This document shows, piece by piece, positions 1,611 to 25,997 of a stretch of 64,000 nt of DNA. The position numbers and the translations under genes are program-made. The notes beneath the pieces are model-generated. The model searched no databases. It was not told where the DNA came from and saw only the letters and a list, made by a program, of their open reading frames with translations. The DNA is taken from NCBI RefSeq assembly GCF_026810225.1, contig NZ_CP113865.1:1756001-1820000 (forward strand), written 5' to 3'. The stretch comes from Caldicellulosiruptor morganii (lineage in GTDB: Bacteria > Bacillota > Thermoanaerobacteria > Caldicellulosiruptorales > Caldicellulosiruptoraceae). Numbering within the stretch: position 1 is the first letter of the stretch; every line of letters starts with the position of its first letter.

Positions 1611-1639
1611 CTAAACTGTGCAAAACTGCACAAGCTTAG
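1611..1639 (-). repeat. right-end subterminal hairpin of the IS element
   Basis: CTAAAC-TGTGCA-aaac-TGCACA-AGCTTAG is an imperfect palindrome with a perfect 6-bp core stem (1617-1622 with 1627-1632). IS200/IS605 elements carry such hairpins near their ends as transposase recognition sites. Here it marks the panD-proximal end. Confidence 0.6.
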
Positions 1640-1880
1640 ACGGCTGGGGTATTTGTAGTCCGCCCTTCAGACTTTCCCAGCCCCAGCAGGCGGTTTTTGG
1701 GAAAGTCATAGCCCCTGCCTTTAAGTGGCAGGAACTCACGCCGATTTTCGGTCTCCCCACTTGCCCTGAAACCAATATCCGTTTCAGGACAGACATGTCT
1801 CGCAACACCCTGCCAGGGGAGAGCGGTGTTACCACCGCTACCCTGAGAACTCGCCAGAGATTGTAGCCTGTGCTACAACT
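1640..1880 (-). ncRNA. candidate omega RNA (TnpB guide RNA scaffold)
   Basis: Several perfect hairpins lie in a row over the 3' end of tnpB: TTGTAG/CTACAA (1861-1878), AGCGGTG/CACCGCT (1822-1839), CCTGAAAC/GTTTCAGG (1765-1788), CCTGCC/GGCAGG (1714-1732) and GACTTTCCC/GGGAAAGTC (1670-1707). TnpB nucleases use an RNA made from exactly this place, the 3' end of tnpB and right end of the element, with the guide read from the flanking DNA. The structures are seen; the function is inferred from the family. Confidence 0.65.
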
Positions 1881-3318
1881 ACCTGCACTTGTTCCATCCA
1901 GAGGTGCAAATAGCCTCCCTGACTCACTCCCAGAGCTTTGTATCTTACGCATTACATATTCAATCTCTTTGATTTGCCTTTTTCTCAAGTTGGCATTTTT
2001 AACTTCTTTGCTTACATACTCTTTCAGCTCTTCTAAACTGCTTACATCAAGACTATTTAAAAGCTCCATATAGTTTGCAGGTACCCTCTCTTTTTCCCCA
2101 AGTCCTCTTCTTGCTATCACATATGCGCTTGCAATGTCTTTGCTTATTTATCATAAACTGCGGTGCGAACTTTATCATCCCTATTATCGATGTGTACGCA
2201 GGACTTACTTCTATAACCTCTATCCCTTCTCGTTTTGCTAAAATCTTAACCTTCTCTAAAAGCGACCTGTAGCTGAAAAAATGTCTTATCCGTCTTGATT
2301 TTCTGCCAGAAAAATCTCCTCTTCTTCCTTTGTCTTTTATATCCAGCCTCTCTATCACAATAGCTTTTCTTTTCTCTTTTGCCATCTTTACAATCTCATG
2401 TGCATACTGCCACCTGTAATACTCTCTTTTGTCATGATTCCCACTTTCAAGCTCTGGCATTGGAATCTTGCCATGGCTTATAAACTGTCCGCTCCTGTCC
2501 ACCTCTACCCATGCCATGTGATTTGGATATGCATTTTTATCTATACCTATAGCACCATTTTCTCTGGTGATTTCTGTCGCCGGAAAGAGTTCTTCTGCTG
2601 AAAAGTAAGCATATATTTTCCCATTCTTGAGTTTTAGCTCTACTGAATAAGGCACTTCAAGAATAGCAATCTCCTGTAAAATTTCTTCTCTGTTTTTGTC
2701 TTTCTTATAGCCAGCTGACAATCTTGCAAATACATATTTTCTATCTCCTACATTTATCCTCAAAAATGTGCCTCTTTCATTTGCCACAATCCTTGTGTTC
2801 AAGTTCCCTTTCTTGCTCCTGTCTCCTCTTGAATAAAGATTCCCTTTCCTTTTTTCCTGCCACTCAATCTTAAGTTTTCTGTAAGGCTTGCCATTTATAT
2901 GTCGCTTTTTGAGCTTTTCAAAAAGCTCTCTACCACCAAAGATAGCTTTCCTCGGGTCTTCTCCTCTTTGCTTGCAGGACTCTAAAACAGCTTTTGCTTT
3001 CATTATTGCATCATCTACATACCTTGAGTTCAAATCAAAAATCCCTTGCAGTTCTCTTTTGAGGCTATTTCTATCATAGCCTTCTAAAAGTCTTTTGTAT
3101 GCAAATCTCATGCAAGATGACCATCTTCTCATAAGCTCCAGTACCTTTTGCCTGTCTTCAAAACTTTCAAAAATCAGCTTAGCCTGAACTGTTACCACGT
3201 TTTTTGCACCTCTGATTAATGTTCTTGTGCTTTTACCATACTCTTACTAACCTTTTTTACATACTCAGTAATATTTAATACCACCCAGTCAAAATTATAC
3301 CTTTTTGCATTGTAATTC

Positions 3319-7179: not shown

Positions 7180-7256
7180 GCGCCCATAGCTCAATTGGAT
7201 AGAGCATCAGACTACGGATCTGAGGGTTGGGGGTTCGAATCCTCCTGGGCGCGCCA
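7180..7256 (+). tRNA. tRNA-Arg (ACG), integration target
   Basis: Acceptor GCGCCCA/TGGGCGC, D-arm AGCTCAATTGGATAGAGC, anticodon loop CTACGGA within TCAGA/TCTGA stems giving anticodon ACG, T-loop GTTCGAATC, encoded CCA. The 3' part from position 7212 is repeated exactly at 20,259, so this tRNA is the attachment site of the island to its right; the gene stays intact at the left end. Confidence 0.95.
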
Positions 7257-7265
7257 GTTATTTTC
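7212..7265 (+). repeat. attL, 54-bp direct repeat
   Basis: The segment from the anticodon loop of tRNA-Arg through GTTATTTTC is identical over 54 bp to 20,259-20,312. The bases before and after differ between the two copies, which defines the core. Confidence 0.92.
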
Positions 7266-7345: not shown

Positions 7346-7382
7346 AGGGTAATTACTCCACCTGTTTAGGAGTGATTACCCT
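7346..7382 (-). terminator. integrase terminator overlapping the stop codon
   Basis: AGGGTAATTACTCC (7346-7359) pairs with GGAGTGATTACCCT (7369-7382) with one mismatch. The stem includes the integrase stop codon. Confidence 0.65.
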
Positions 7383-8565
7383 TTGTTTTTATTATATCCT
7401 CAAATAAATTGTTCAACTTCATTGCAGCAGCCTTCTTTATTTCCGGCATAACATGGGAATAGATATTGAGAGTTGTTGAGATGTCCTTATGTCCTAAAAG
7501 CTCTTGTACAACCTTAGGATGTTCATTGGCTTCTAAAAGCCTTGTTGCATATGTGTGCCTTAATGCATGAAAGTTTATGTCAAGGTTTGCCCTTTTAATT
7601 ATTCGGTAAAATGTCCTTAAAAAATTCCTTGGTTCAATTGGAGTGCCGAGTTCTGTTGCAAATACTAAATTGTTATCTTCATATAGATTTCCGGCTTTCA
7701 ACTTCTCTTCAAGCTGCCTCTTTCGGTGTTCTTTTAGCTCTTCCACAATAGCAGGTGGTATAGGGATTGTTCTTATACCAGAAGCAGTTTTAGGTTCTTG
7801 AAACGCTAACATGGTTTTTGTCGGCAGGTGTTTATCATATGTTTTTATTCTTTTGAGAGACCTTTTTACTGTTATTGTGCCTTCTTTGAGATTTACGCAA
7901 TCCCACTTCAAAGCAAGAAGCTCACCAAGCCTGACTCCACTTGCAAGAGCCAATAAAAAAGCCGGTCTTAGTCTTTCACCTTCCAAAGCAGCTATAAACC
8001 TCTTTTGTTCTTCCAGACTCATGACTCTTATTTCTTTCTTATTCTTTGCTTTTGGCAATGTTGTTGCTTCACTTACATTTCTTATAACCAGTCCATTCTT
8101 TAGCGCTTGGTCTAATGCTGAGTGTAATATAACATGAATGTGCTTTATAGTAGAATATGAGAGCCCACTCTCACATTTAGAATTATACAATGCTTGCAAG
8201 TGTTCAGGTCTTAAATCTTTAAGTTTATAATTTCCTATAGATGGAATAATGTGATTATTGATAATGCCTTCATAATCTTGGAAGGTTGAGGGTCGCAATG
8301 TCTGTTTTTTATATTCCCAAAGCCACGTGTTAAGCCAATATTTCAATGTTATCTTTGCAGGGTCAACATAAACACCTGTTGCTATGTCGTTGAGTGCCTT
8401 TGCTATCTTTTCAGCAACCTCTTGCCTTGTCTTACCATAAAAATACTGCCTCTTTTGTCTTCCGTTTTCGTCTCTTCCTATTGTGATTTGCCCACACCAG
8501 AGCCCGTCTTTTCGTTTGTAAATACTGCCTTCATTATTACCTCTCTTTTTTGTCTTTGTAGGCAT
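7366..8565 (-). CDS. int: tyrosine recombinase, integrase of the island
   Basis: The 399-residue protein has an AP2-like arm-binding start (GSIYKRKDGLWCGQITIG), a SAM-like core-binding domain (about 65-165) and a catalytic domain with Arg in ASGVRLGELLALKWD, HxxR in HALRHTYATRLL, LLGHKDISTT and the nucleophile Tyr in LNIYSHV. It should integrate and excise the element at tRNA-Arg. It is the attL-proximal gene, transcribed toward the tRNA. Confidence 0.95.
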   Translation of the reverse strand: MPTKTKKRGNNEGSIYKRKDGLWCGQITIGRDENGRQKRQYFYGKTRQEVAEKIAKALNDIATGVYVDPAKITLKYWLNTWLWEYKKQTLRPSTFQDYEGIINNHIIPSIGNYKLKDLRPEHLQALYNSKCESGLSYSTIKHIHVILHSALDQALKNGLVIRNVSEATTLPKAKNKKEIRVMSLEEQKRFIAALEGERLRPAFLLALASGVRLGELLALKWDCVNLKEGTITVKRSLKRIKTYDKHLPTKTMLAFQEPKTASGIRTIPIPPAIVEELKEHRKRQLEEKLKAGNLYEDNNLVFATELGTPIEPRNFLRTFYRIIKRANLDINFHALRHTYATRLLEANEHPKVVQELLGHKDISTTLNIYSHVMPEIKKAAAMKLNNLFEDIIKTKGNHS

Positions 8566-8566
8566 A

Positions 8567-9148
8567 TTACAGCACCTCTTTTATCTGGGCAAAGTCTATT
8601 ATAAGGTCTTCAAAAAGAGAGACCTTCACTTTGTCGTTGAAAGTGTAAACTTTGGGATATGAATATCCTGTCTCTGGATGATATACATACACAAAAATGT
8701 TCTGTTCATATGGGTTGACAATCCAGTATTCTTTAACCCCAAATTGAGTGTAAAGGTTAAGTTTTCTGATATAATCATGTGCAGGATTATTTTGTGACAC
8801 CACCTCAATTATCATCTCAGGAGCTCCAATGCAGCCTTTGTCAGTAAGTTTTTTCTTATCGCAAATAATCGAAATATCAGGCTGCACAACATTGACTGCC
8901 TGTTTTTCATCCTGCCCTTCTTCTATCAGGACAACATCAAAAGGAGCTGTGTAAATTTCGCAGGTTTTTTTATTTTGCCGAAGATAGCTACCAATTGTTA
9001 TTGTTAGCTCTGAAACTATCTTTTGGTGCATTCTTGAAGGTGCAGGGCTCATATCATAGATGACACCTTCAATCAGCTCTACTCTTGCGTCTTCTGGCAG
9101 CTGAAGATAGTCTGCATAGGTGTAAATCTTAGGAATCCTGGCTTCCAT
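8567..9148 (-). CDS. Uma2-family restriction-endonuclease-like protein
   Basis: The PD-(D/E)XK-type fold of the Uma2 (DUF820) family is visible: YTYADYLQLPEDARVELIEGVIYDMSPAPS, then QPDISIICD and GAPEMIIEVVSQNNPAHDYIRKLNLYTQFGVKEYWIV (catalytic-like D, ExxS and K). The function of Uma2 proteins is unknown. I start at the ATG at 9148 (MEARIPK) because AAGGTGAT lies six bases upstream; that start overlaps the repressor gene by 20 bases. It sits between integrase and repressor as cargo. Confidence 0.85.
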   Translation of the reverse strand: MEARIPKIYTYADYLQLPEDARVELIEGVIYDMSPAPSRMHQKIVSELTITIGSYLRQNKKTCEIYTAPFDVVLIEEGQDEKQAVNVVQPDISIICDKKKLTDKGCIGAPEMIIEVVSQNNPAHDYIRKLNLYTQFGVKEYWIVNPYEQNIFVYVYHPETGYSYPKVYTFNDKVKVSLFEDLIIDFAQIKEVL

Positions 9149-9989
9149 CAGTATCACCTTCTTTGTTTATATTTTTTATATTGCTGATTTCTGAAATATC
9201 TACTATACCTTGAACTGCTCCTATGAGTTTTAATATTCTTACTAAATTTTCTTCAAAATTATTAAGATAGAATGCTTCTATATTTCTCATAGAAGTTAAA
9301 ACTTCACCTTGTGGTTTTAATAAACTTATAAGGAATAATGAAGTCTCTTGAAGTTCAGAAATTATTTTGGTTATTGTTTCATCATCCATCTTTTTTTCAA
9401 ACATAAAAGAATTTCTTTTGTAATTTGACACTACATTATTAAAGCCATAGCGTTCAAAAAGTAACTTTAGTGCATAGCTCGGGTCGTAATCACTTTTTAA
9501 AGCTAAAAAATATGCTGGTTTTTTCGTATATTCAAGCAAACTACCAAAGTATAGGTTTAAACTATCCAATAATTTCTTAAATAAAGTAAAAAAATCTTTT
9601 TTCTCATCCCCAAAAGTATGTTGATATAAAATACCAGATATATTCCTTATAAGTGGTTCAACATTATTTACTAGAATGTTGCCCAAAATTGCTTTGCTTT
9701 CTGAATCCAATGAAACTTCAATTACTTCATCAAGCTTATATTTCTCATAGAAATTCTTCCCCTTGAACTCTTCTTCTCTTGTTCTGAAATCACTGTGACC
9801 AATTAAGTAGTCCACAGTTACACCAAAAAAATCAGCAATCTTAAGCAATGTGTCAAAATTAGGCTCTCTATGTCCATTCTCATAATTTGCTATGGTTTGC
9901 GTCGAAACGCCTAAAATTTCTGCCAAATCATTTCTTGAAATATTCTTTTCTTCTCTAAGCTCTTTAAGTCTAAATCTGAATAAATTCAC
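9129..9989 (-). CDS. XRE-family repressor, putative master regulator of the island
   Basis: Residues 3-62 are a classic helix-turn-helix (LKELREEKNISRNDLAEILGVSTQTIANYENG). The 286-residue protein then has about 220 residues of unrecognised, mostly helical sequence that could sense an inducer, as Stl-type repressors of staphylococcal islands do. It is divergent from the excisionase-replication operon across a region with repeated AAACTAnnTGAAT motifs, its likely operators. Confidence 0.85.
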   Translation of the reverse strand: MNLFRFRLKELREEKNISRNDLAEILGVSTQTIANYENGHREPNFDTLLKIADFFGVTVDYLIGHSDFRTREEEFKGKNFYEKYKLDEVIEVSLDSESKAILGNILVNNVEPLIRNISGILYQHTFGDEKKDFFTLFKKLLDSLNLYFGSLLEYTKKPAYFLALKSDYDPSYALKLLFERYGFNNVVSNYKRNSFMFEKKMDDETITKIISELQETSLFLISLLKPQGEVLTSMRNIEAFYLNNFEENLVRILKLIGAVQGIVDISEISNIKNINKEGDTDGSQDS

Positions 9990-10194
9990 TCAACCACCAC
10001 CAAAAACTATTCGTTTAATTCTCATTATAGAACAAACTTAGAGAATTAACAATAAGAAACTAAATGAATTTAATAATAAAAAATTAAAACTAACTGTTGA
10101 CAAATACATTTAGTTTGATATAATAAAATTAGAAAACTAATTGAATAGTTTTAGATAACTTTTTTTAAAACATTAATAATAAGAGGTGTTCTCA
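9990..10194. promoter_or_regulatory. divergent control region with operators and rightward promoter
   Basis: A rightward promoter has TTGACA (10097-10102) and TATAAT (10119-10124), spacer 16. Four related motifs are visible: AAACTATTCGTTTAATT (about 10003), AAACTAAATGAATTTAA (about 10059), ATTTAGTTTGAT inside the spacer, and the palindrome AAAACTAATTGAATAGTTTT (10133-10152). Repressor bound to the third and fourth would block the rightward promoter. Motifs are seen; the repressor assignment is inferred. Confidence 0.7.
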
Positions 10195-10413
10195 ATGGAA
10201 ATTTATAATCCTCAACCTCAAAGAGAGAAAATAGAGAAACTGACAATTAGCATTAAAGAAGCTGCTCAAATGCTTGGTATAAGCTACAACGTAATGCTCA
10301 CCTTGGTGCACAGAAAAGACTTCCCAAAAATTTTAGCTGGGCAGCGAAGAATCTTAATTCCCAAGGAAGCTTTCATAAAATGGGTCAATGAACAGGCTTG
10401 CCAGAATAAATAG
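10195..10413 (+). CDS. excisionase-family DNA-binding protein
   Basis: The roughly 72-residue protein is a winged MerR-like helix-turn-helix of the excisionase family: LTISIKEAAQMLGISYNVMLTLVHRKDFP then RRILIPKEAFIKWVNEQ. It probably bends DNA for excision or activates the operon. AAGAGG at 10181 selects the ATG at 10195 over an upstream GTG. It is the first gene right of the control region. Confidence 0.85.
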   Translation: MEIYNPQPQREKIEKLTISIKEAAQMLGISYNVMLTLVHRKDFPKILAGQRRILIPKEAFIKWVNEQACQNK

Positions 10414-10514: not shown

Positions 10515-13058
10515 GTGTCAAAGCAATACAAAAATGCAGAATTGGACAAACATATTGATTATGAGAGATTTTACAGTCGGTATCTCACAAATATGAGAAG
10601 GACAGGCACTGATAAAATAAGTGCAAGGTGTCCTTTTCATGATGACCAGCACAATTCGTTCTGGTTTAGGATAGCAAATGGTTGCTGGAAGTGTGAAGCA
10701 GGCTGTGGCCAAGGCAATGCAGTAACATTTTTAGAAAGAATGGAAAAAATAAATAGGAAAGAAGCTTATAAAATGTTGCTCAAAGAAGCAGGGTTATTGG
10801 ATAAAAGCGAGGAGAAAAAGGGAAAAATGAGATACACATTGGAAGACTATAGCCAAGAAAAGAAATTGCCTTTAGATTTTTTAAAAAGATTAGGTCTTAA
10901 GACATGTAAAACAGGCGTTGAAATTCCATATTATGATGAGGAAGGAAAGTTTTTGAGAGCAAGAATAAGACATCACCCAAAAAGTGAAAATCGTTTTACT
11001 TGGGGAAAGGGAAAAGGCACTTATCCATATGGGCTTTGGAAAATAAACGAAGCATACAAGAAGGGCTACATAGTAGTTGTAGAAGGCGAATCAGACACGC
11101 ATACATTATGGCTTAATGACTATCCAGCTCTTGGGATACCAGGGGCAACAGCCTTCAAAGCAGAATGGGCAAAATACTTTGAAGGGTTAAAAGTTTACAT
11201 CAGCCGTGAACCAGCAGGCGAAAAAACTGATGCAGGTCAGACTTTTGTTAATAAGATTTGTACTTCAATAAAAGAACTTGGTGTAAATTGTAAAGTTTTT
11301 AAGTTTACAATTGACGAATACAAAGATCCAAGTGGGCTTTATCTTAAAGACACTACTTCTTTCAAAGAAAATTTTGACAAAATTTTGCAGTCAGCTGAAG
11401 AAATTGACCTCACAGAATATATAGAAGCAACAAAAGAAGAAAATCCTTTCGGCATAAAATATAATACTCCACAGGGGTATTATATCACAGCCGAAGGGAT
11501 ATTTAAAGAAACGACAAAGAAAAAAGGACTTGAAACTATTGAGATTACTAAGACACCAGTTATTATCAGCAAAAAGTTGGTAGACATTGAAACCTCAAGA
11601 CAGAAAGTAGAGCTGGCTTATATAAATAACAATCGAAGAAACTTCATAGTAATTGACAAGGAGCAAATAGCTAATAATCGATGTATCATAGACCTTTCTA
11701 ATTATGGCATCTTAGTAAATTCTATTAACGCAAAGAATATGGTGCAATATTTTTACGATTTTGAATCTGCAAACATGGATAAAATTCCACTAAAATTTAT
11801 GACCAATAAATTAGGTTGGTTTGGTAACAAATTCTTTCCTTATGAAGAAGATATTCTTGTTCTATTCAATGGCAACGTTTTTGAAGGTTTGACCACAGCT
11901 GGGACATTTCAAGAATGGCTGCAAGGAATAAAGCAATTCAGGTATAACGAAGCTTTTCGCTTCATGTTAGCTGCTTCTTTTGCAGCACCGCTACTAAAAC
12001 TTCTCCAGCAGAGAATTTTTCTTGTCCACCTTTGGGGCGACTCCAGAAGTGGCAAAACAGCAGCTTTGAAAGCTGCTTTGTCGGTCTGGGGTAACCCAGA
12101 GGACCTTATTGTGACATTCAATGCCACTAAGGTTGGTCTTGAAAAAAATGCAAGCTTTTATAATGACCTACCTATTGGTATTGACGAACGACAGGTCGCA
12201 AACAATCAAGAATTTACTGAAAATATTGTATATATGCTCTCGCTTGGAAAAGGGAAGCTTAGAGGTTCAAAGACTGGAGGCTTGCAGCCTCTTACAAGTT
12301 GGCACACAATAATTCTATCAACAGGTGAAGAACCTCTGAGCAGCACAACTTCAAATGAGGGTGTATTCACAAGAACGATAGAGATTAATTTAAAGCCTTT
12401 TAATAATGAAGATGAAGCGAGAGAGTGTTACAAAGTTATTAATAACAACTTTGGCTGGGCTGGCAGAGAGTGGATAAAAGCTATCAAACAAAACAAGGGA
12501 CTGTTGCAACAAATCAAAGATACATCACAAAGTTTATTAGAGCAAATTTTAATCTTCTATCCTGAGATTTTACAAAGCCATGCTCAGGCACTATCCTTTG
12601 TCGGGGCCGTTGACATTGCTACCTCAAAGATAATTTTCGGTGAAGAGAAGTCAGAAGAAATTACAATTGTTGTTATATCAGCTATAGCTGAACAACTTCA
12701 AAGTACAGAAGAGGTAGACATAGGGCAACGTGCCTATGATTACATTGTGGACATGGTCAATTCTCATATCAGCAATTTTAAGGATGAAGCAAAGGAAAGA
12801 TGGGGTTTTTTGAATGACGACTTTGTTGATTTCATCCCTGCAATATTGGGAAAGTTGTTGGAAGAGCAGGGTTTTAATCCCAAAAAGGTTTATACAAGCT
12901 GGGCAGAAAAAGGATTGCTCAAAGCTGTTTTTGAAAGAGACAAAAGGAAATTCCAATATCCTAAAAGAATAGGCAAACAAGTATGCAGAGTAATAAGAAT
13001 AAAACTTCCTCAAGCCGAATCATCTTCTATACCCTTAAGGGGTATAAAAGAGTTGTAA
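10515..13058 (+). CDS. primase-helicase: CHC2 zinc finger, TOPRIM and DUF927 ATPase
   Basis: The 847-residue protein joins three parts: a CHC2-type zinc domain (CPFHDDQHNSFWFRI...CWKCEAGCGQGNA, residues 39-75), a TOPRIM domain (GYIVVVEGESDTHTLWL, about 180-270), and a C-terminal DUF927 helicase-like ATPase with Walker A GDSRSGKT near residue 510 followed by NATKVGLEKNASFYNDLPIGIDE. Such proteins prime and unwind the origin of islands and phages. Start is a GTG with GGGAGG 9 bases upstream. The stop codon already lies in the first iteron of the putative origin. Confidence 0.93.
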   Translation: MSKQYKNAELDKHIDYERFYSRYLTNMRRTGTDKISARCPFHDDQHNSFWFRIANGCWKCEAGCGQGNAVTFLERMEKINRKEAYKMLLKEAGLLDKSEEKKGKMRYTLEDYSQEKKLPLDFLKRLGLKTCKTGVEIPYYDEEGKFLRARIRHHPKSENRFTWGKGKGTYPYGLWKINEAYKKGYIVVVEGESDTHTLWLNDYPALGIPGATAFKAEWAKYFEGLKVYISREPAGEKTDAGQTFVNKICTSIKELGVNCKVFKFTIDEYKDPSGLYLKDTTSFKENFDKILQSAEEIDLTEYIEATKEENPFGIKYNTPQGYYITAEGIFKETTKKKGLETIEITKTPVIISKKLVDIETSRQKVELAYINNNRRNFIVIDKEQIANNRCIIDLSNYGILVNSINAKNMVQYFYDFESANMDKIPLKFMTNKLGWFGNKFFPYEEDILVLFNGNVFEGLTTAGTFQEWLQGIKQFRYNEAFRFMLAASFAAPLLKLLQQRIFLVHLWGDSRSGKTAALKAALSVWGNPEDLIVTFNATKVGLEKNASFYNDLPIGIDERQVANNQEFTENIVYMLSLGKGKLRGSKTGGLQPLTSWHTIILSTGEEPLSSTTSNEGVFTRTIEINLKPFNNEDEARECYKVINNNFGWAGREWIKAIKQNKGLLQQIKDTSQSLLEQILIFYPEILQSHAQALSFVGAVDIATSKIIFGEEKSEEITIVVISAIAEQLQSTEEVDIGQRAYDYIVDMVNSHISNFKDEAKERWGFLNDDFVDFIPAILGKLLEEQGFNPKKVYTSWAEKGLLKAVFERDKRKFQYPKRIGKQVCRVIRIKLPQAESSSIPLRGIKEL

Positions 13059-13394
13059 CACCTAACAAACTGAGAACTATCAAGCCTTTAAAACAATTAG
13101 GTGTTACAGGTGTTACAAAAGGTGTTACAAAAAGAATTAAGATTTATCAAAGTATATAAGGTATCTATATACCCTATGTAACACCTGTAACACCTAAAAT
13201 AATAAGTATATAAAAAAAACAGAATTTTAATCTCCATTATATACCAATTACCATTGGAAAAAATTTACCCTCAAAATATAAAAAAAGTATATATATATTT
13301 TAAAATTAGGTGTTACACATTTCTACAAAAGTAAAACCTCTGATTTTTCAAGGGTTTTTGAGGCTTAATTTTGTAACACCTCAAAGGTGTTACA
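13054..13394. other. candidate replication origin with nine iterons flanking an AT-rich core
   Basis: The 9-mer GGTGTTACA or its complement occurs at 13054, 13100, 13109, 13121, 13177, 13186, 13309, 13372 and 13386 (start positions). Four are in TGTAACACC and five in GGTGTTACA orientation. Between the sixth and seventh lies an AT-rich stretch of about 110 bp with long A, T and TA runs. Staphylococcal islands have exactly this arrangement, iteron clusters around an AT-rich region directly after rep. The repeats are seen; origin function is inferred. Confidence 0.75.
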
Positions 13395-13536: not shown

Positions 13537-14190
13537 ATGTTCAATAGCCTTAAACAAAAATACTATCGCTTTGGGGACGAAAAGGCACTTGAACAAATGA
13601 AAAGGATAATTGAAAGCAACCCTGATTTAAAAGCACAATACATTGAGCTTTGTAAAACAGCTGAAGATGAGATAAAAGGCTATAAAGATTATGCAACTCA
13701 GCAACAGCTAAAAGAGATTGAAGCTGCTCTTATCTTTTTGGACAAGGAAAGACTGAAAGAAGCTATTCAAGCTTTAAAGCAAAACGTAGCTATAAATTTT
13801 TTTGGCCTATCAGAAAACACTACAAGGCAAGAACAGGAACAGAAATCTGACAAAAAAGTTTTGCAATTCAGCTTTTCTGAGCAAAGAGTCTCTGCCAGTG
13901 GGAAGCACTTTGTTATAAAAAGCAAAAAACCACTTGATATTAGCAAAACCAAAGAAGCTTTTACTGATTTCAGATGTGAGATGTGCAAAGGCAATGAACT
14001 TGTCTATGTAGACGCTATAGGAGCTTTTGTATGCCCTAACTGTTTTCCTCAAACTGATGTTGCCATCAGGGTTAAAAGTTACATGCAGCCAATGTCAAAT
14101 GAGTATATCTATGAACTTTACCCTATATACAGATACCCAAAAGAGGACAATTTCAAAGACAATGACACTAAAACAGTGGCAGCTATTTAA
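13537..14190 (+). CDS. hypothetical protein with C-terminal zinc-knuckle
   Basis: I start at ATG 13537 (MFNSLKQKYY) behind GGAAAGGAGTG; the protein is 217 residues. The first 110 residues are charged and helical. Near the end are two CxxC pairs, CEMCKGNELVY and CPNCF, about 20 residues apart, which should bind zinc. No family recognised. It follows the origin in the rightward operon. Confidence 0.7.
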   Translation: MFNSLKQKYYRFGDEKALEQMKRIIESNPDLKAQYIELCKTAEDEIKGYKDYATQQQLKEIEAALIFLDKERLKEAIQALKQNVAINFFGLSENTTRQEQEQKSDKKVLQFSFSEQRVSASGKHFVIKSKKPLDISKTKEAFTDFRCEMCKGNELVYVDAIGAFVCPNCFPQTDVAIRVKSYMQPMSNEYIYELYPIYRYPKEDNFKDNDTKTVAAI

Positions 14191-15712: not shown

Positions 15713-15744
15713 TAAAATAGAACGCAAGTTTGGAGGTGTTAAAA

Positions 15745-16230
15745 ATGATAAGCTATGACTGGGAAGGGTTAAAGAGTGAGTTTGTACTTGGCAGCTATAG
15801 GTCTTTAAAAGAGTTTGCAGAGGCAAAGAATATCAGCTATGGACTTTTGCGAAACAAGGCAAAAGGATGGCTGCGGGAAAAACGACAGGTTGAGAGAACC
15901 AAAAACAACCTCATAGTAGAAAAGACGATTCAAAAACACGCAGAGCTTGCTTGTGATTATAACAGTTTGCATATTGAATATTGGAACAGGCTGCTTGAAT
16001 TAGTCAGGCAGGCTCTTTATGATGATAAAACAATAAGGACCAAAGAAGGCAAGATAAATGTTTATGCACTTGAAAAGCTTGCAGATGTGATAGAGAAGGT
16101 CCAAAAAGGACAGAGGCTTGCACTTGGAATTGATGAAAAGAAGGACAACAATAATGAGGAACTGCTCCAGAGGATAAGAGAAATCATACAGGCACTTAAT
16201 GAACCAAATGAGGATACTGCCTTGAACTGA
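15745..16230 (+). CDS. phage terminase small-subunit-like protein
   Basis: The 161-residue protein opens with a DNA-binding helix-turn-helix resembling small terminases (FVLGSYRSLKEFAEAKNISYGLLRNKAKGW), followed by helices (residues 55-130) and an acidic tail. GGAGGTG selects the ATG at 15745. In Gram-positive islands a self-encoded small terminase redirects helper-phage packaging to the island; no large terminase is present here. The assignment rests on domain order and context, so an HTH regulator remains possible. Confidence 0.55.
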   Translation: MISYDWEGLKSEFVLGSYRSLKEFAEAKNISYGLLRNKAKGWLREKRQVERTKNNLIVEKTIQKHAELACDYNSLHIEYWNRLLELVRQALYDDKTIRTKEGKINVYALEKLADVIEKVQKGQRLALGIDEKKDNNNEELLQRIREIIQALNEPNEDTALN

Positions 16231-16253
16231 GCTTCAAAGGAGTGGTTGTAACA

Positions 16254-17186
16254 ATGCAAAAAACAGCTTTGCCACAGCTTACAGAAGCTCAAAGACAGCT
16301 TTTAATTACTGACAATCTAAAACTTGTCTATCACATTGCCAATAAGTTTATGCCATGCCCAAGTGGTTACTGCTATGAAGTAGATGACCTTGTGAGCGAG
16401 GGATACTTTGGACTTGTCATAGCAGCAAAAAACTTCAACCCAGAGAAGGGAAGCTTCTCAACCTATGCTTGCAAGGTGATTGAAAACAGAATCAAAAGAA
16501 GTTTGCCAAAGTACAAATTGACAGCAGCTATTTCTTTGGACAGTCCAGTATCAAAAGAACCAGATGAGGACACAGCAGTTTTGGCAGAAGTAATATCAGA
16601 TGGCTATTCTGTTGAAAGTGAAGTTATAAGAAAAGACATTTCAGAAAAGCTGCAAAGATACTTTGACATATTGACAGATGAAGAGAAAGAAAGAGTTTTG
16701 TATTATATAAGCACAGGGAAAACTCCACCTGCAAGTGATAAGGTGTTTAAAGCAGCAAGAAAGAAGTTGTTAGCAAAAATAAGACAGGAGAAGATAGAGG
16801 CAGACCTTGACGACTTGACAGTATTCATTTCATGCCCAGCTGTTCATGTGTCAAGTGGTAGTTTATATAAATCCTCATCAGTTGAGGCAGCAGTGATTGC
16901 CAGAGAGGAGAAAAGAAAACAGCTTGAGGTTCTGTCATCAATACCGCAATTGGACAAGCTAAGGGTTTTAAAGCAGCAAGGAGAACAGGACAGGATGAAG
17001 CTTCTTGCTGCCAAGTGGGAGGTTGAAGAGTTTATAGAGAAGAACTGGGACAATCTCACAATTAACAATCTAAGGCTTTTAAAAGACTACTTTGTTTTGT
17101 GTCTTTCACATCTTTCAATGGTCCAAAAGTATGGCAGCAGTTACAGAGAGCAAATAAAAAGAGTGGTTAAAAAGATAACAGGATAA
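16254..17186 (+). CDS. sigma-70-family-like transcription factor
   Basis: Residues about 12-90 match sigma region 2: LVYHIANKFMPCPSGYCYEVDDLVSEGYFGLVIAAKNF followed by GSFSTYACKVIENRIKRSL. Further on, DILTDEEKERVLYYISTG could stand for a degenerate region 4, and the last 100 residues are coiled helix. AAAGGAG favours ATG 16254. Sigma-like proteins drive late genes in some phages; a regulator of the island's or helper's late genes is plausible. It directly follows the terminase-like gene. Confidence 0.7.
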   Translation: MQKTALPQLTEAQRQLLITDNLKLVYHIANKFMPCPSGYCYEVDDLVSEGYFGLVIAAKNFNPEKGSFSTYACKVIENRIKRSLPKYKLTAAISLDSPVSKEPDEDTAVLAEVISDGYSVESEVIRKDISEKLQRYFDILTDEEKERVLYYISTGKTPPASDKVFKAARKKLLAKIRQEKIEADLDDLTVFISCPAVHVSSGSLYKSSSVEAAVIAREEKRKQLEVLSSIPQLDKLRVLKQQGEQDRMKLLAAKWEVEEFIEKNWDNLTINNLRLLKDYFVLCLSHLSMVQKYGSSYREQIKRVVKKITG

Positions 17187-17253: not shown

Positions 17254-17670
17254 TTATGCTTTCATGCGTTCTTTAATACCTAACTTCTCTTTGAGAGCCT
17301 GCTGCAAAACCTGTGAAAAGTTAATATGTGCCTCTTCAGCTGCTTTGCTCAGCCATCTTGGCAGTGTTACAGTTTTATTTACGCTTTTGTTAGCCATCTC
17401 TTCCCTAACCGGTGGCATATACGCAATAATTGGCACTACAAAAGCACCTTTTGGAATATCTAACTTCTCTGGTGGAGTTGGTTCAGGGATTTCCTCTCCA
17501 TCTTCTTCTAAACCAAAGAGATGCAGCTCAAGAGCTTCTTTTGCCATGTATAAAGCCTCTTCAAGGTTTTTTCCTTCTGTTATACATCCGGGTAAATCTG
17601 GGAATGTGACAATATAACCTTCTTTCTCTGCTGGCTCAAATATAGCCGGGTAAATATACTTATCTTTCAT
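17254..17670 (-). CDS. hicB: HicB-family antitoxin
   Basis: The first 65 residues are the HicB partial RNase H fold (YPAIFEPAEKEGYIVTFPDLPGCITEGKNLEEALYMAKEALELHLFGLEEDGEEIP). The end, residues about 95-135, has a ribbon-helix-helix-like DNA-binding part (NKTVTLPRWLSKAAEEAHINFSQVLQQALKEKLG). It neutralises HicA and represses the pair. It lies 21 bp after hicA. Confidence 0.9.
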   Translation of the reverse strand: MKDKYIYPAIFEPAEKEGYIVTFPDLPGCITEGKNLEEALYMAKEALELHLFGLEEDGEEIPEPTPPEKLDIPKGAFVVPIIAYMPPVREEMANKSVNKTVTLPRWLSKAAEEAHINFSQVLQQALKEKLGIKERMKA

Positions 17671-17691
17671 TGTTCTTTCCCCCTGTTCAAT

Positions 17692-17874
17692 TTATTTTAA
17701 TCCTGCTTGTTTGAGAATACTGCTCAGCGTCTTTGGGTCAAGGTCCTTGTTGTGATATGGAACTGTTACTAATCCTTTTTTAAAAGGATGTCTAAATTGT
17801 TTATGAGAACCTCTTTGCCTTACTTCATACCAGCCATCTTCTTTTAGTATTTTTATCAATTCTTTAGGCTTCAA
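17692..17874 (-). CDS. hicA: HicA-family mRNA interferase toxin
   Basis: The 60-residue protein has the double-stranded-RNA-binding-like HicA fold with the catalytic His in RQRGSHKQFRHPFKKGLVTVPYHNKDL and the end TLSSILKQAGL. It is the first gene of the pair, typical HicAB order. Confidence 0.92.
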   Translation of the reverse strand: MKPKELIKILKEDGWYEVRQRGSHKQFRHPFKKGLVTVPYHNKDLDPKTLSSILKQAGLK

Positions 17875-17902
17875 TTCTTTTGCACCTCACAATATTATAT
17901 TA

Positions 17903-17923
17903 ACACGTGTTATTTGCACGTGT
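17903..17923 (-). promoter_or_regulatory. HicAB promoter-operator
   Basis: ACACGTG (17903-17909) and CACGTGT (17917-17923) are a perfect inverted repeat, 7-bp spacer, lying between TTGACA and a TATAAT-like -10 on the minus strand. It is a natural site for HicB autoregulation. Confidence 0.75.
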
Positions 17924-17939
17924 CAATAATGCAATGGGT

Positions 17940-18674
17940 TTATATCTTTTTTAAAAGCTATAGCTTGAAACCAAGTCGACGAAATTCATCGGCTTGGATA
18001 GGTAGTAAACAACAATGACTTAAAATGTTTTGACCAATGCGGTCAAAGATAGTAATTTCAAGAAAGCAGGTATAGGGAGGACATCCCCCCACCTTAAAAT
18101 TAAAGAACCAAAGCCAGAGACCGGCGGGCCCAGCTCCAAAGACCTGCGACAGGTCCATACATGAGGGGGGTTATAGGCAAAAACATCTAAAAACAGCTAA
18201 AAAGTTCTATTTTTCGATAAAAAGAAGAAAAATTTTTTTATTTCCCTTTAAAAGTTTGAAAAAGGTGCTATTTTTTTGGTTCTTAAAAGCGTTCTAAAGG
18301 CTCAAGGAATGCTAAGAAAAGCTAAGGTGGTATTTTTATATATCCTAAGCTTTTTGCTGCTCTATGAAGGCTTTTAAATGAGTTTTGATGTGAAAGCGTT
18401 ATAAGGCTGCAAGAACGCAAAATAGTATTTTTCGAGTAATTTTCTTGCATTAGCAGCTTTAAGGACCATTTGAAAAGTAATAAGGCATACAATAGATTGC
18501 AGATTTTATAGCCTCAAGGGTTAATTAGCTTTATCCAGAGATTTTGGAGTCCTTTAAAAAGGAAACTTTCATTTGTTTTTCTGTAGTTTTTAGGTTATAA
18601 TATTTAAAAACACTTCTAAAAATCTTTACCTAATAGGTTAATAAAAATTGACTTTCAGGAGGACATATTGTATA
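17940..18674. other. non-coding stretch with a GC-rich block and degenerate repeats
   Basis: No believable gene is seen. Positions 18055-18175 are strikingly GC-rich for this window and include CCGGCGGGCCC and the perfect hairpin GACCTG-cga-CAGGTC, followed by GAGGGGGG. After this comes AT-rich DNA with repeated (C/G)TATTTTT boxes near 18208, 18269, 18330 and 18424, and two related blocks, AAAGCGTTCTAAAGGCT and GAAAGCGTTATAAGGCT, about 105 bp apart. The GC-rich block could be a packaging site or a gene remnant. Confidence 0.45.
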
Positions 18675-19025
18675 ATGGAAGTGAGGTACAAAACTAAAAA
18701 GCTGCAAAAGATATGTGAAAATTATAAGCTGGCGCAAAAAGAGTTTGGGCAGGATATAGCTAAAAAACTTTTTCAAAGATTAAATGAGCTTAAGGCTGCC
18801 AAATCTTTATATGACATATCTTGTTTGCCAGCTACTGGTTTTCACAAGTTAGAAGGTTCTCGGAAAGGACAATATGCTGTGTACTTAGTTCATCCATTTA
18901 GGCTGGTTTTTACATCAATTATTTCACCTTCCGAAAATCAAACACAAAATGACATAGATTTATCAAAAATCGTAATAATTCAAATTGAAGAGGTGATAGA
19001 TTACCATGGCAAGGAAAAAAGATAA
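18675..19025 (+). CDS. higB: HigB/RelE-superfamily toxin
   Basis: The protein (MEVRYKTKKLQKICENY) has the RelE/HigB fold: a basic first half, LFQRLNELKAAKSLYDISCLP, GFHKLEGSRKGQYAVYLVHPFRLVF with the catalytic-side basic residues, and IIQIEEVIDYH at the end. It would cleave mRNA on the ribosome. GGAGG lies 12 bases before the ATG. The end overlaps the antitoxin gene by 20 bases. HigBA order, toxin first, is usual. Confidence 0.85.
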   Translation: MEVRYKTKKLQKICENYKLAQKEFGQDIAKKLFQRLNELKAAKSLYDISCLPATGFHKLEGSRKGQYAVYLVHPFRLVFTSIISPSENQTQNDIDLSKIVIIQIEEVIDYHGKEKR

Positions 19026-20082
19026 AATAGATGAAGCGTTGATTGCTATTCCACCCGGTGAAACCATAAAGGAAAATCTTAAGTATTTAGGAATGACACA
19101 GGCTGAATTTGCCCAAAGGATGGGGCTTTCAGAGAAAACTGTGAGTGAAATAATAAATGGTATTGCTCCAATAACTTATGAAACAGCACTTAAATTAGAA
19201 AATGTCATAGGTGCTTCTGCTGAATTTTGGATGAACTTAGAAGCTAATTATCAACTTGCTAAAGCAAGAATAGCTGAAAAACTAAAATTGAAGGATGAAG
19301 AAAAAATACTAAACCAAATTCCGTATAACGAAATGTCAAAACTTGGTTGGGTGTCAAAAACCAAAAGCAAAGAAGAAAAAATAAAGAATCTTAGAAATTT
19401 TTTTGGAGTATCCTCTTTAAATTATATACCTCAAACATTAGAAGTCTGTTTTCGAAAAACTAACAATCCAAGAACTTCTTGCTATGCCTTAGCGGCGTGG
19501 ATTAGGAAAGCTGAAATAGAAGCTCATAAAATAGAAACAAAGCCTTTTGATAAAGAAAAAATTTATCAGCTTATACCAGCTATAAGAGAGCTTTCAAAAC
19601 ATCCTTGGGAAGAAATTTACCCAAATTTAAAAAATCTCTGTTCAGAGTGTGGGATAGCATTGGTAACACTTCCCCATTTAAAAGGCACATATGTAAACGG
19701 TGCAACAAAGTGGCTTAAAAAAGACAAGGTTTTATTAGCTTTGAGTTATCGATATAAGTTTGCCGACGTATACTGGTTTTCGTTTTTTCACGAGTTAGGA
19801 CATATATTAAAACATAATAGAAAAGAGGTTTTTATTGAAGGTGATGAAGAAACTGCAAAATGCGAATTGGAACAGGAAGCTGATAATTTTGCTGCTAACA
19901 CATTAATACCTTATAGAGAGTATAAAAAGTTTATATCTGAAAATAAATCATTTACAAAAGACAAAATAATTGCCTTTGCTGACTCTCTTAATGTTCATCC
20001 TTGCATTGTAGTAGGAAGATTAATGCATGACAAAAAAATTAGTCCTTGGGATTTTCCTGAATTGCGACCGAAAATTATTTAG
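19006..20082 (+). CDS. higA: HigA antitoxin fused to an ImmA/IrrE metallopeptidase
   Basis: Residues about 15-85 are a HigA helix-turn-helix (PGETIKENLKYLGMTQAEFAQRMGLSEKTVSEIINGIAPIT...LENVIGASAEFWMNLE). The rest carries a zinc-peptidase core HELGHILKH near residue 265 with a downstream EQEADNFAANTLIP. The 358-residue fusion is longer than plain HigA (about 100). A protease part might allow regulated removal of antitoxin or another repressor. It is the last gene before attR. Confidence 0.9.
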   Translation: MARKKDKIDEALIAIPPGETIKENLKYLGMTQAEFAQRMGLSEKTVSEIINGIAPITYETALKLENVIGASAEFWMNLEANYQLAKARIAEKLKLKDEEKILNQIPYNEMSKLGWVSKTKSKEEKIKNLRNFFGVSSLNYIPQTLEVCFRKTNNPRTSCYALAAWIRKAEIEAHKIETKPFDKEKIYQLIPAIRELSKHPWEEIYPNLKNLCSECGIALVTLPHLKGTYVNGATKWLKKDKVLLALSYRYKFADVYWFSFFHELGHILKHNRKEVFIEGDEETAKCELEQEADNFAANTLIPYREYKKFISENKSFTKDKIIAFADSLNVHPCIVVGRLMHDKKISPWDFPELRPKII

Positions 20083-20258: not shown

Positions 20259-20312
20259 CTACGGATCTGAGGGTTGGGGGTTCGAATCCTCCTGGGCGCG
20301 CCAGTTATTTTC
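20259..20312 (+). repeat. attR, 54-bp direct repeat
   Basis: This is an exact copy of 7212-7265, the 3' portion of tRNA-Arg with its flank. Without the 5' part it cannot form a tRNA. Confidence 0.92.
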
Positions 20313-20401
20313 TACAGCTACTGTACAGCCACCCAAACGGATTACAAAAAATAAGGGTAACTTCTCTCACATAAGAGCAGTTACCCTTATTTCACAGCTA
20401 C
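20312..20401. repeat. remnant of a second, related attachment/integrase end outside attR
   Basis: Just outside attR the order seen after attL recurs: CTACAGCTAC (20312) with a degenerate second copy, a short spacer, then the stem ATAAGGGTAAC/GTTACCCTTAT (20351-20390) that parallels the integrase terminator at 7346. No integrase gene follows. This looks like the attL end of another element of the same family that was lost. Confidence 0.5.
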
Positions 20402-20411
20402 ATCCTATATT

Positions 20412-21711
20412 CTAATCATTGAATAACTCATATGCCCTATCTTGACTCAAACGCTCAACTGCAGGGTCATTTAAAAAAGCTCTCTTCGCAAAATTCAAAT
20501 CCTTTTCTAAGGCTGCCCTAACAATTAGCTTCTGGTTGCTAATATGCCTTGTCATTATACTCGCTAAATCAGATGGCAAAGCACCTGCATAAACAGGGCG
20601 TACATCATCACGAGTAAAAACTGCGTTTGTCTCAACAATAGCACCAGCCGGTAAATTGGGTATTTGACCTTTGTTGGGTAAATTAACATTGGTGACTAGG
20701 GTATCTAATCCCAGAATAGCTTTTATTTGCATAACACCTTCTTCTCCAGAGGGATTCAAAGGTACTTCTTTTTTGCCAGATACATACTCTCTACTAAGTT
20801 CAATCAGTTCTTCTCTATGCTTTACTCTCCAATCAACAGGTGTCAAATTGAATTTCCATTTTTTTGCTGTTTCTCTGTCAGTTAAACAAATATATGGTAC
20901 AAATTCAGCCAAGTGTCTGTCACCTGCTGCAATGAGTCCAAATCGTCTGAATAAATCAAACTTAACCCTATTTGCAGATGCAAAGTAATCCTTTTCCCCA
21001 AGCCCCTTTACTTTCTCAAATCTTTCTTCTTAATACTTATCTACAAATTCTTTGTATAGAGGAAATAAATAATAACTTTTATATAAAGCTTTGTCAAACC
21101 ATGTAAAATGGTTTATGCCAAGAACGTTTACCTTGATTTCTCTTCTTGAGATATCTCTATCCTCTTCCAAAAATTCCTTTACAACTTCTGCCAAAAGTTT
21201 CTGTGTACCAAAAACTTTATGACAGCAGCCAAAAGCTTTTATATTTGGGAATACTTCATAAAGAGTTTTCAAACAAATAGCTATTGGATTTGTATAATTG
21301 ATAACCCAGGCATCCGGACAATTCTTTCTTATAGCTTCTGCAAACTCAACATACATAGGAACAGTTCTAAATCATCTGATAAGACCACCAGGACCAGTTA
21401 TATCACCAACCGATTGGTAAATACCATATTTTTCAGGAGCATGAACATCAGAATGCATCTCTTCAAAAGTTCCAGGCAAAAATAAAATGATAACAAAGTC
21501 TGCACCATATAAAGCTTCATCCAGGCTTTTTACCGCTACATATTTCCACTTCCCCACAACCTCAGTCTTGTTTGAGAGTTTGTTCCCAATTATTTCATTG
21601 TTTTTTGCAGCTTCAAAGTCAATATCATAGAGTTTAACAGTACCACTTAAATCTTTTTCAAAAGCCAAATCAGTTATCAATCTCCATGCCCAGCCTCGTG
21701 AACCACCACCA
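20412..21711 (-). pseudogene. GH4 family glycosidase, full-length but with nonsense codons
   Basis: One frame encodes the whole GH4 protein: NAD-binding start ITYIGGGSRGWAWRLITDLAF, INYTNPIAICLKTLYE, GCCHKVFGTQKLL, NVLGINHFTWF and a C-terminal GAIVETNAVFTRDDVRP. It is broken by TGA at about 21371 and TAA at about 21029, and the codon where a start is expected is not ATG. GH4 enzymes use NAD and a metal, held partly by the Cys-His pair seen here, to cut alpha- or beta-glycosides; the substrate is unclear. No frameshift is seen, so decay is recent. Confidence 0.85.
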
Positions 21712-21875
21712 ATATATGTAATGTTTATTTGTTTTTGTTGCTCTGATGTGGTATTTAAATTGAATTCTTTCTATATTATTTTGCAATTTCAAATAAATTA
21801 TATTACAAAATATGATAAAATCCAAACCATAATAAATAAAAATTTGATAATGTTGGGTTTCTGAAAATTTAGGGG

Positions 21876-21905
21876 TTGACAAATTAAGCAGCTATAGCTT
21901 ATAAT
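21876..21905 (+). promoter_or_regulatory. promoter of tRNA-Trp
   Basis: TTGACA (21876-21881) and TATAAT (21900-21905), spacer 18. Confidence 0.8.
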
Positions 21906-21917
21906 AAAGTCAGATAT

Positions 21918-21993
21918 AGGGGCGTAGCTCAATTGGTAGAGTAGCGGTCTCCAAAACCGTTGGCTGGGGGTTCGAGTCCCTCCGCCCCTGCCA
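21918..21993 (+). tRNA. tRNA-Trp (CCA)
   Basis: Acceptor AGGGGCG/CGCCCCT, anticodon loop CTCCAAA between GCGGT and ACCGT giving anticodon CCA, T-loop GTTCGAGTC, encoded CCA end. It marks the last chromosomal feature before the large accessory block and could be its attachment site; no second copy of its 3' end is seen in the window. Confidence 0.95.
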
Positions 21994-22016
21994 TATGTTT
22001 CTAAAGGTTTGGAGAG

Positions 22017-22046
22017 ACAAGTCCATTGTGCGGGCAATGGACTTGT
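22017..22046 (+). terminator. perfect hairpin after tRNA-Trp
   Basis: ACAAGTCCATTG (22017-22028) and CAATGGACTTGT (22035-22046) form a perfect 12-bp stem with a 6-nt loop. No T run follows, so it may be a processing or pausing signal instead. Confidence 0.5.
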
Positions 22047-22060
22047 GATATAATCTCTAT

Positions 22061-22151
22061 ATGGTCGGGAGTTACACCCCCTTATGAGAGTTGTTCAGCT
22101 GGATGGTTTGTGGGAGGGAGAAAGGTTTTTCCTTTCTCCCTCCCACAAACC
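22061..22151 (+). ncRNA. candidate small RNA with a perfect 21-bp hairpin
   Basis: A promoter-like TTGTGC-17-TATAAT (22026-22054) would start a short transcript. It carries GGAGTTACACC and GAGAGT, the same paired motif seen in leaders of the block to the right, then a perfect 21-bp stem (22105-22125 with 22131-22151) with a TTTTT loop. No ORF of note is present. The structure is certain, transcription is inferred. Confidence 0.5.
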
Positions 22152-22200
22152 AAACACATTTTCGCTGTGCCCTTTACATCCTTTTAGATACCCCCTTCAA

Positions 22201-22270
22201 AAAAATTTGACATTTTGTATAAACATCTAAAAAGTATAGTTTTGCCAACTATTTGATTATATTTTATCAT
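22201..22270 (-). repeat. dispersed promoter-leader repeat, copy 1
   Basis: Diverged copy of the repeat described at 22471: on the minus strand a TATAAT/TAAAAT box, then TTGGCA, then TTTATACAAAATGTCAAATT. No gene follows directly on the minus strand. Confidence 0.6.
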
Positions 22271-22300
22271 AACCAAACAAGTGTATCAACTGGGTATTAA

Positions 22301-22405
22301 CTAAAATTCTGAATCATCTTCACCCATAAAAACTGCCAATATTTTGAGCAGTATTAGAGGAACATACCATATGAGAAACACAACAACCAGTGGATGTTTA
22401 AGCAT
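22301..22405 (-). CDS. 34-residue membrane peptide
   Basis: An ATG behind AAGGAGAGTTTGAACA, the leader motif of this block, opens MLKHPLVVVFLIWYVPLIL and ends LAVFMGEDDSEF. The first 27 residues form one membrane helix with an acidic tail. A terminator-like hairpin and a promoter-leader repeat lie upstream. Too small to identify; it may be a toxin-like or regulatory peptide. Confidence 0.55.
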   Translation of the reverse strand: MLKHPLVVVFLIWYVPLILLKILAVFMGEDDSEF

Positions 22406-22428
22406 TGTTCAAACTCTCCTTCTTACAG

Positions 22429-22455
22429 AAAAAGGCAGGTTATTACCTGCCTTTT
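22429..22455 (-). terminator. hairpin between promoter-leader repeat and the 34-residue gene
   Basis: AAAAAGGCAGGT (22429-22440) pairs with ACCTGCCTTTT (22445-22455). On the minus strand it sits in the 5' leader of the small gene, so it may attenuate rather than end transcription. Confidence 0.6.
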
Positions 22456-22470
22456 GTTTTACTTTTGTAG

Positions 22471-22542
22471 AAAATTTGACATTCTTTATAAACACCTAAT
22501 TAATACACTTCTGGCAATCATTTTCTTGAGTATATTATACCA
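22471..22542 (-). repeat. dispersed promoter-leader repeat, copy 2
   Basis: These 72 nt are identical to 54068-54139. On the minus strand they start at a -10 TATAAT (22534-22539) and run through TTGCCAGAAGTGTATTAATT to GTTTATAAAGAATGTCAAAT. The copy precedes the 34-residue peptide gene. Confidence 0.85.
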
Positions 22543-22566
22543 TTGTGGCTTTAAAATTTCAACAAC

Positions 22567-22637
22567 AAAAAATTTGACATTCTGTATAAACACCTAAAAA
22601 GTGTATTTCTGGTAAAGAATTTAAATATATTGTATCG
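22567..22637 (-). repeat. dispersed promoter-leader repeat, copy 3
   Basis: Diverged copy: TACAATATA box, TTACCAGAAATACACTTTTT, then TTTATACAGAATGTCAAATT. It is in tandem with copy 2, so transcription from it would run into that copy. Confidence 0.6.
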
Positions 22638-22677
22638 TATTTTTTGTTTTGTTTCAAGAGCAACTTTTAAAAAACTT

Positions 22678-23082
22678 TCAATATATCTCTCTCGGTTCAG
22701 TCCATATTTCTTTGCCGTTGTACAATACAAGGGGTATTACTGGTGGAATTTTGTCTGTTCCTTCCTTTATCTTTTTCTCCCAGAAAAGCAGCATGTTGTT
22801 TAATATTATGTTTCTCATACCGCATTCTGGAATCTTACTTATAAAAAAGATGAAAATATATACTGTGCTGTTTTCTATTGTTACCTTAGCTATTACATCA
22901 GGCTTATATTTAAGAACATTTCCGTTATCGTAGTCTACTGGGATAACTTTAATGGAATCCTTTTGTATTCTATCTGCCCAGCTAAATTTTGCCACGTTTT
23001 TCAGCAAGAAAAGTATCTCTTTGGGGTCCGAAAAGATAAGTCTGAAAATTGCATTTTCATCTTGAGAAAAATTGTTGTTCAT
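22678..23082 (-). pseudogene. Rpn/YhgA-type PD-(D/E)XK nuclease, N-terminal fragment
   Basis: The 134 residues match the start of recombination-promoting nuclease/transposase-like proteins: DENAIFRLIFSDPKEILFLLK, YKPDVIAKVTIENSTVYIFIFF and PPVIPLVLYNGKEIW. The family is usually about 300 residues, so the C-terminal half is gone. It ends at a TGA after EPREIY, next to the repeats at 22.2-22.6 kb. Confidence 0.7.
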
Positions 23083-23159
23083 TTGTCTCTGCCCCTTCTC
23101 GAAGAGTTTTGATAAGGCAATTTTAACCTACGCTTTTTTCAATTGCAACAAAAAAGTAA

Positions 23160-23192
23160 GAGGAGAGTGGTTTTTAGGCACACTCTCCTCTT
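23160..23192 (-). terminator. terminator overlapping the primase stop
   Basis: AAGAGGAGAGTG and CACTCTCCTCTT form a perfect 12-bp stem around 23160-23192 with an AT-rich flank. The primase stop codon lies within it. Confidence 0.7.
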
Positions 23193-24292: not shown

Positions 24293-24386
24293 GGCACTCC
24301 CTCTCCCTTCTTATTTTTTTACTCAGTTTTTTGTTTACTCGCGTTATGAGTAAAACTCCGACAAGAGGGAGAGGGAGTACCTCTCC
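24293..24386 (-). promoter_or_regulatory. GAGT leader of the primase gene
   Basis: Minus-strand order: stem GGAGAGG-tact-CCCTCTCC, CGGAGTTTTACTC, GAGTAAAC, then AAGAAGGGAGAGGGAGTGCC and ATG. The pyrimidine run CTCCCTCTCCCTCTT is complementary to the Shine-Dalgarno run. Confidence 0.65.
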
Positions 24387-24935: not shown

Positions 24936-24941
24936 CCTTTT

Positions 24942-25980: not shown

Positions 25981-25997
25981 TACTGGGCTGAACAATA

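Follow-up and report, generated by a model that had tools for sequence, protein, structure and literature searches.

The Rep protein of SaPIs recognises, through its C-terminal domain, iterons located directly downstream of its own gene (PMC7581432), and the origins of PICIs comprise two iteron sets round an AT-rich region (PMC6092414). Covariation of a DNA-binding domain with its iterons, and their exchange as a module, has been described for RepA and the origin of PLE, the Vibrio satellites; PLE differs from the system considered here in its unrelated RepA_N initiator and its ~30-bp iterons, and residue-level rules are not described in the available text of that account (PMC8263062).

We analysed a window of 64 kb (the whole stretch of DNA under study) that contains an array of short repeats directly after a helicase gene. 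The locus resembles SaPI/PICI systems, such as SaPIbov1 Rep with its ori and PT1028, in having an MCM-like DUF927 initiator with a C-terminal DNA-binding domain, iteron sets round an AT-rich region that directly follows the initiator gene on its 3' side, and a similar gene order in the element (PMC6092414, PMC7581432). It differs from these systems in its iteron unit and in its host, which to judge by the relatives is likely a Clostridia-type thermophile, and no helper is known here; unlike in PT1028, where the DnaG-type primase part is a separate gene, this part is fused to the helicase. We consider it highly probable that the repeats form the replication origin of a 13-kb PICI-like integrated element, and that the initiator binds the iterons through its winged helix, with a strand of the wing reading the unit.

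The iteron array and its chance level

The 9-mer GGTGTTACA occurs in nine exact copies within 341 bp, from the stop codon of the primase-helicase gene onward, with starts at 13054(-), 13100(+), 13109(+), 13121(+), 13177(-), 13186(-), 13309(+), 13372(-) and 13386(+). The first-pass annotation had placed nine copies of a 9-bp unit, in both orientations, at these same positions; however, every copy in the array is preceded by an A, giving the 10-mer AGGTGTTACA in 9/9 cases, and 10 bp is the more fitting length for the functional unit. The 10-bp iterons and the core between them are as follows.

13054..13063, minus strand: iteron 1, overlapping the stop codon of the initiator gene
13099..13108, plus strand: iteron 2
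13108..13117, plus strand: iteron 3, one base in common with iteron 2
13120..13129, plus strand: iteron 4
13177..13186, minus strand: iteron 5
13186..13195, minus strand: iteron 6, bounds the core on the left
13196..13307, no strand: AT-rich core (85% AT), where the DNA would probably melt
13308..13317, plus strand: iteron 7, bounds the core on the right
13372..13381, minus strand: iteron 8
13385..13394, plus strand: iteron 9

As the first pass had noticed, copy one of the 9-mer (13054-13062) overlaps the TAA stop codon of the initiator gene (13056-13058). The core between copies six and seven, given there as about 110 bp of AT-rich DNA, measures ~112 bp and, at 85% AT, has the lowest GC content in the region.

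Within the 64-kb window, a single further copy of GGTGTTACA is present, at 60839, and dinucleotide shuffles of the window contained a mean of 0.37 copies and a maximum of 2. Across the whole genome we counted 51 copies; the 42 outside the array are scattered, with at most two per 341 bp anywhere, and clustering occurs at the array only. The genome background rate predicts 0.006 copies per 341 bp; the Poisson probability of nine is ~2e-26, and the earlier claim that chance cannot explain this density holds.

Repeats between two genes might also serve as operators for a repressor, either one of the element's own or one acting on the downstream gene, rather than as an origin. The array does sit between two genes, and its unit holds the near-palindrome TGTTACA; however, no exact copy is found at the divergent int/xis promoter region, and promoter-like sites in the region occur only at shuffle level. 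Moreover, as described below, arrays accompany this helicase across phages, plasmids and islands, and the unit follows the wing residues of the helicase itself. Based on these observations, we regard operator function as very improbable, and we continue with the reading of the array as an origin.

The integrated element and its initiator

The array is located within an element of 13,047 bp that lies between perfect 54-bp direct repeats at a tRNA-Arg gene. Its features are listed below.

7212..7265, plus strand: attL, one of the two perfect 54-bp direct repeats; it comprises the 3' part of tRNA-Arg(acg, 7180-7256) and a further 9 bp
7366..8565, minus strand: tyrosine integrase (PF00589 4e-30, PF14659)
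9129..9989, minus strand: Cro/C1-type repressor, divergent from the replication genes (PF01381 7e-21)
10186..10413, plus strand: excisionase-like small HTH protein (PF12728; phrog_66 excisionase 8e-5)
10515..13058, plus strand: fused primase-helicase initiator, 847 aa (Pfam domains; phrog_8841 4e-145; AlphaFold model fold matches)
13537..14190, plus strand: 217-aa protein after the origin; a related ORF also follows the origin in G001 and G007; Pfam and phrog family searches gave no family
15730..16230, plus strand: small-terminase-like HTH protein, a weak match (phrog_1206 1.4e-8 over residues 6-67); Pfam and NCBIfam searches gave no match
16242..17186, plus strand: sigma-70 region 2 protein (PF04542 3e-15)
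20259..20312, plus strand: attR, the other 54-bp direct repeat

The gene order (int, divergent repressor, xis, primase/rep, ori) is that of SaPI/PICI elements, and the size fits their range of ~12-15 kb. No capsid, tail or other structural or lytic family was identified among the element ORFs scanned, which were all but the smallest. Across the genus the tRNA-Arg site is occupied differently, and its distance to the right flank is just ~1 kb in G004 and G009; in the related genome G001, a similar element carries att repeats of its own.

The array could be a true replication origin and yet belong to a reduced prophage rather than to a satellite that parasitises phages. Full phages (THSA-485A, FP_Epona and the prophage in G031) use the same module, the small-terminase-like match is weak, and a helper is not known; these points keep a reduced prophage in consideration as the less probable identity. 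The compact PICI-like order with 13,047 bp between perfect att repeats, the lack of any capsid or tail gene among the ORFs scanned, and the similar element with its own att repeats in G001 argue instead for a PICI-like element, which is the identity we prefer.

Several other observations were made in and around the element. Near attR, at 17254-20082, the element contains two toxin-antitoxin-like pairs, one HicAB-like and one HigB-like with a HigA/ImmA-type protein. To the right of attR, a second mobile-looking region (20313-40000) extends past tRNA-Trp (21918-21993); based on their translations, its ORFs include CHC2-type primase-like, SSB-like, tyrosine-recombinase-like and large cell-wall-hydrolase-like proteins, and the region is perhaps a conjugative element. 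At 1611-3198, a TnpB/IS605-like transposase ORF with an adjoining out-of-frame remainder lies beside pantothenate genes. In G001, locus L040 (G001:C1:2118000-2137000) has two consecutive integrase genes, and the tRNA-Arg att repeat is present several times in the vicinity, an arrangement that suggests tandem integration at one site. Locus L043 (G005:C1:1161000-1175000) holds the same helicase gene in decayed form, its reading frames interrupted.

The gene upstream of the array had been called a primase gene in the first-pass annotation. A primase part is present, but the product is a fused primase-helicase in which Pfam identified a DnaG-type zinc ribbon (residues 9-94), a DUF927 helicase (327-591) and a Cch-type winged helix (735-833). 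Profile comparison with SaPIbov1 Rep gave 2.6e-57. We used an AlphaFold model covering residues 300-847 (pLDDT 89.5) for structural comparison; it aligned best to SaPIbov1 Rep (8tch; VIA-align Z 34.7, 453 residues, 4.7 A) and then to SCCmec Cch (5dgk; Z 31.5), followed by MCM helicases at Z ~12. The helicase is thus of the SaPIbov1 Rep/SCCmec Cch type. It has the helicase and HTH domains and the fold in common with Cch, whereas two S. aureus SCC cch plasmid loci, checked as a contrast, lack a repeat array after cch. Assignment as the SCCmec Cch equivalog was rejected, as NF047345 (SCCmet_Cch1) gives 75 bits against a cut-off of 700. A classical iteron plasmid (Rep_3, RepA_N) was likewise rejected: the only initiator candidate found is the DUF927 helicase, and no such Pfam match was found among the proteins scanned.

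When the HTH domain was compared in isolation, it matched Cch (Z 12.5), SaPIbov1 Rep (Z 11.2) and the TcpK-oriT complex (Z 10.6); TcpK of plasmid pCW3 is its closest DNA-bound structural match. TcpK places its wing, instead of the usual helix, in the major groove to bind a nine-nucleotide repeat, and a TcpK mutant without DNA binding carried R28A, R75A, N82A and Y84A (PMC6137059). Unlike the initiator, TcpK is a free-standing dimer that acts in conjugation and lacks a helicase.

The array, the element and a helicase of the SaPIbov1 Rep/Cch type together make the reading as a SaPI origin well supported; replication itself we infer. In agreement with the first-pass suggestion, place and form are like those of SaPI origins: the array lies directly 3' of the initiator gene, two iteron sets surround an AT-rich core, and the initiator family matches. 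The origin is ordinary in kind, and its setting is new.

Layout of the probable origin in relatives

A scan of genome contigs with the single protein identified no relative, and an alignment-based scan identified relatives. Two of these, from the same genus (77% and 63% identity), share the layout but use different units, AGTGGTTACA and ACTGGTTACC. We compared the unit of the present element (G000), AGGTGTTACA, with that of G001, AGTGGTTACA. Iteron bases 3 and 4 were each changed in 8/9 copies; the other seven scored iteron bases differed in 2/63 cells, and the spacers differed at 39/260. The iterons have changed in concert, and the frame is conserved.

A significant array is present directly after the stop codon in 76 of the 94 non-redundant relatives with downstream DNA; at the threshold used, the other 18 have no significant array. 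The layout of these arrays is similar and the unit different, with all copies changed together. Measured start to start in 47 oris, the core is ~101 bp (IQR 92.5-108). The innermost pair of iterons is oppositely oriented in 72/76 arrays, a count from related sequences for which a p value would overstate significance, and on the right side the next inward-facing copy is usually 50-68 bp out. Similar layouts were found in the SaPI-like PT1028, in a Geobacillus plasmid, and in phages THSA-485A and FP_Epona. These phages also have the fused primase-helicase in common with the present element; unlike it, they are full phages, and their units are CGGTTACC and TAGGTGAAACA.

In the Geobacillus plasmid (CP128451), the array after the helicase consists of 12 exact copies of GTTGTGACA, and the helicase module is apparently present twice in the 13-kb plasmid record. 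Legionella and Klebsiella plasmids (L520, L521) carry repeat arrays directly after the stop codon of a DUF927 helicase; the units of these gammaproteobacterial plasmids, TGGGACA x9 and GTTGGTTCA x11, fall outside the common frame described below.

The initiator, encoded immediately upstream, would bind the 10-bp iterons via its C-terminal winged helix and assemble on both iteron sets flanking the AT-rich core. The innermost iterons face outward on each side, which would suit two helicase rings in opposite orientation; these rings would open the core and unwind bidirectionally, and the fused primase domain may prime.

Wing residues and iteron bases

The units were read in a common frame, A1 G2 n3 n4 G5 n6 n7 A8 n9 n10, in which A1, G2, G5 and A8 are nearly invariant in the main clade. 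Most of the variable bases covary with three residues on the wing of the initiator.

12945..12971, plus strand: central wing strand, codons 811-819 (RKFQYPKRI), with the covarying residues 812 (iteron base 4), 816 (bases 6-7) and 818 (bases 9-10)

In the model, residue 812 is at the end of strand 810-812, and residues 816 and 818 are two apart on strand 815-819; together these form the wing beside the HTH. The covariation was found before the match to TcpK was known.

Residue 818 gave by far the best association with bases 9 and 10 among 366 protein columns (phi 0.85 and 0.83). In a clade of 49 members, R818 occurs with CA in 15 cases, with CG in one and with C plus an unclear base 10 in three; W818 occurs with GG in 22/24 and K818 with CC in 4/4. 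In the same clade, base 4 is C in 9/9 members with E812, G in 9/9 with R812, A in 3/3 with Q812 and T in 9/9 with V812; bases 6-7 are AA in 4/4 members with M816, GA in 4/4 with K816 and mostly TA with V816 or I816. The change from K812 in G000 to R812 in G001, alongside T to G at base 4, fits the rule for 812. The distant split-type helicases follow the frame less cleanly, and their Trp in the aligned column is not accompanied by GG (L271, L273, L274).

Because several residues mean T at base 4, pairwise phi underrates residue 812, and we used leave-one-out prediction instead, with close HTH relatives removed. Residue 812 predicted base 4 with an accuracy of 0.93 (majority 0.47; next column 0.65). 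Accuracy was 0.89 for base 6 (majority 0.78) and 0.85 for base 7 (majority 0.69), and residue 818 predicted bases 9 and 10 with an accuracy of 0.98 each (majorities 0.51 and 0.53). Using a contrast tree built without the HTH, we identified independent pairs for 812R (5), 812E (3), 816M (4), 818 (4) and 816TLPSQ (~6), none of them in the opposite direction; most of the sign tests have <6 pairs, too few for significance, and the categories were chosen from the same data.

The rules were written down first, and new loci were fetched afterwards. We scored 13 cleanly registered, non-close cases with HTH identities of 39-72%, leaving out badly registered units of distant helicases (registration thresholds 3.8 and 3.3; threshold picked after the table had been seen). 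The 812 rule gave the right base 4 in 12/12, against 3/12 for the majority guess, and therefore passed. The 816 rule was right for base 6 in 8/12 and for base 7 in 7/12 and fails for Gln, and is therefore partial. The 818 rule was right for base 9 in 10/12 and for base 10 in 10/11, equal to the majority guess because the new set is nearly all Arg; a search for additional sequences contrasting W and R at 818 found none, and the evidence behind this rule is in-sample.

Since initiator and origin are adjacent and inherited as a block, unrelated residues could seem predictive by hitchhiking. The wing and the origin do move together, and the sequences are related; nevertheless, none of the other hundreds of columns compares with 818 and 812, and the effects persist once close HTH relatives are removed and reappear on independent branches. 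The 12/12 predictions of base 4 at 39-72% HTH identity, and the position of the residues on the wing, which contacts DNA in TcpK, also argue against hitchhiking, and we consider it an improbable source of the correlations. Direct contact between wing residues and bases would account for them, with 812 reading base 4, 816 reading bases 6-7, and 818 reading bases 9-10.

In near-identical phage helicase pairs (e.g. L210/L051, L113/L116, L221/L252), the upstream helicase gene mostly has 94-100% DNA identity; from ~400 bp before the stop codon through the origin, identity is ~72-95%, and it is higher again downstream. The simplest reading suggested by these alignments is exchange of a wing-plus-origin cassette, such that wing and iterons would switch together when specificity changes; PLE RepA provides a documented parallel for such a swap of modules (PMC8263062).

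From these comparisons, we think it somewhat probable that in initiators of this helicase family one beta-strand of the winged helix bears a short and largely modular recognition code, with turnover of specificity by wing-plus-origin cassette exchange while the layout is conserved. The code would assign base 4 by residue 812 (E=C, R=G, Q=A, V/T/K=T), bases 6-7 by residue 816, and bases 9-10 by residue 818 (R=CA, K=CC, W=GG, Y=GA); the origin sequence would then be predictable from the protein. Such a residue-to-base code looks new. A similar layout is seen in several bacterial groups, on islands and plasmids as well as in complete phages, and the initiator/origin pairs constitute a natural data set on how an initiator reads its origin, with a testable residue-to-base rule. 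The rule would offer a way to find origins, and to predict satellite-phage compatibility, from protein sequence alone.
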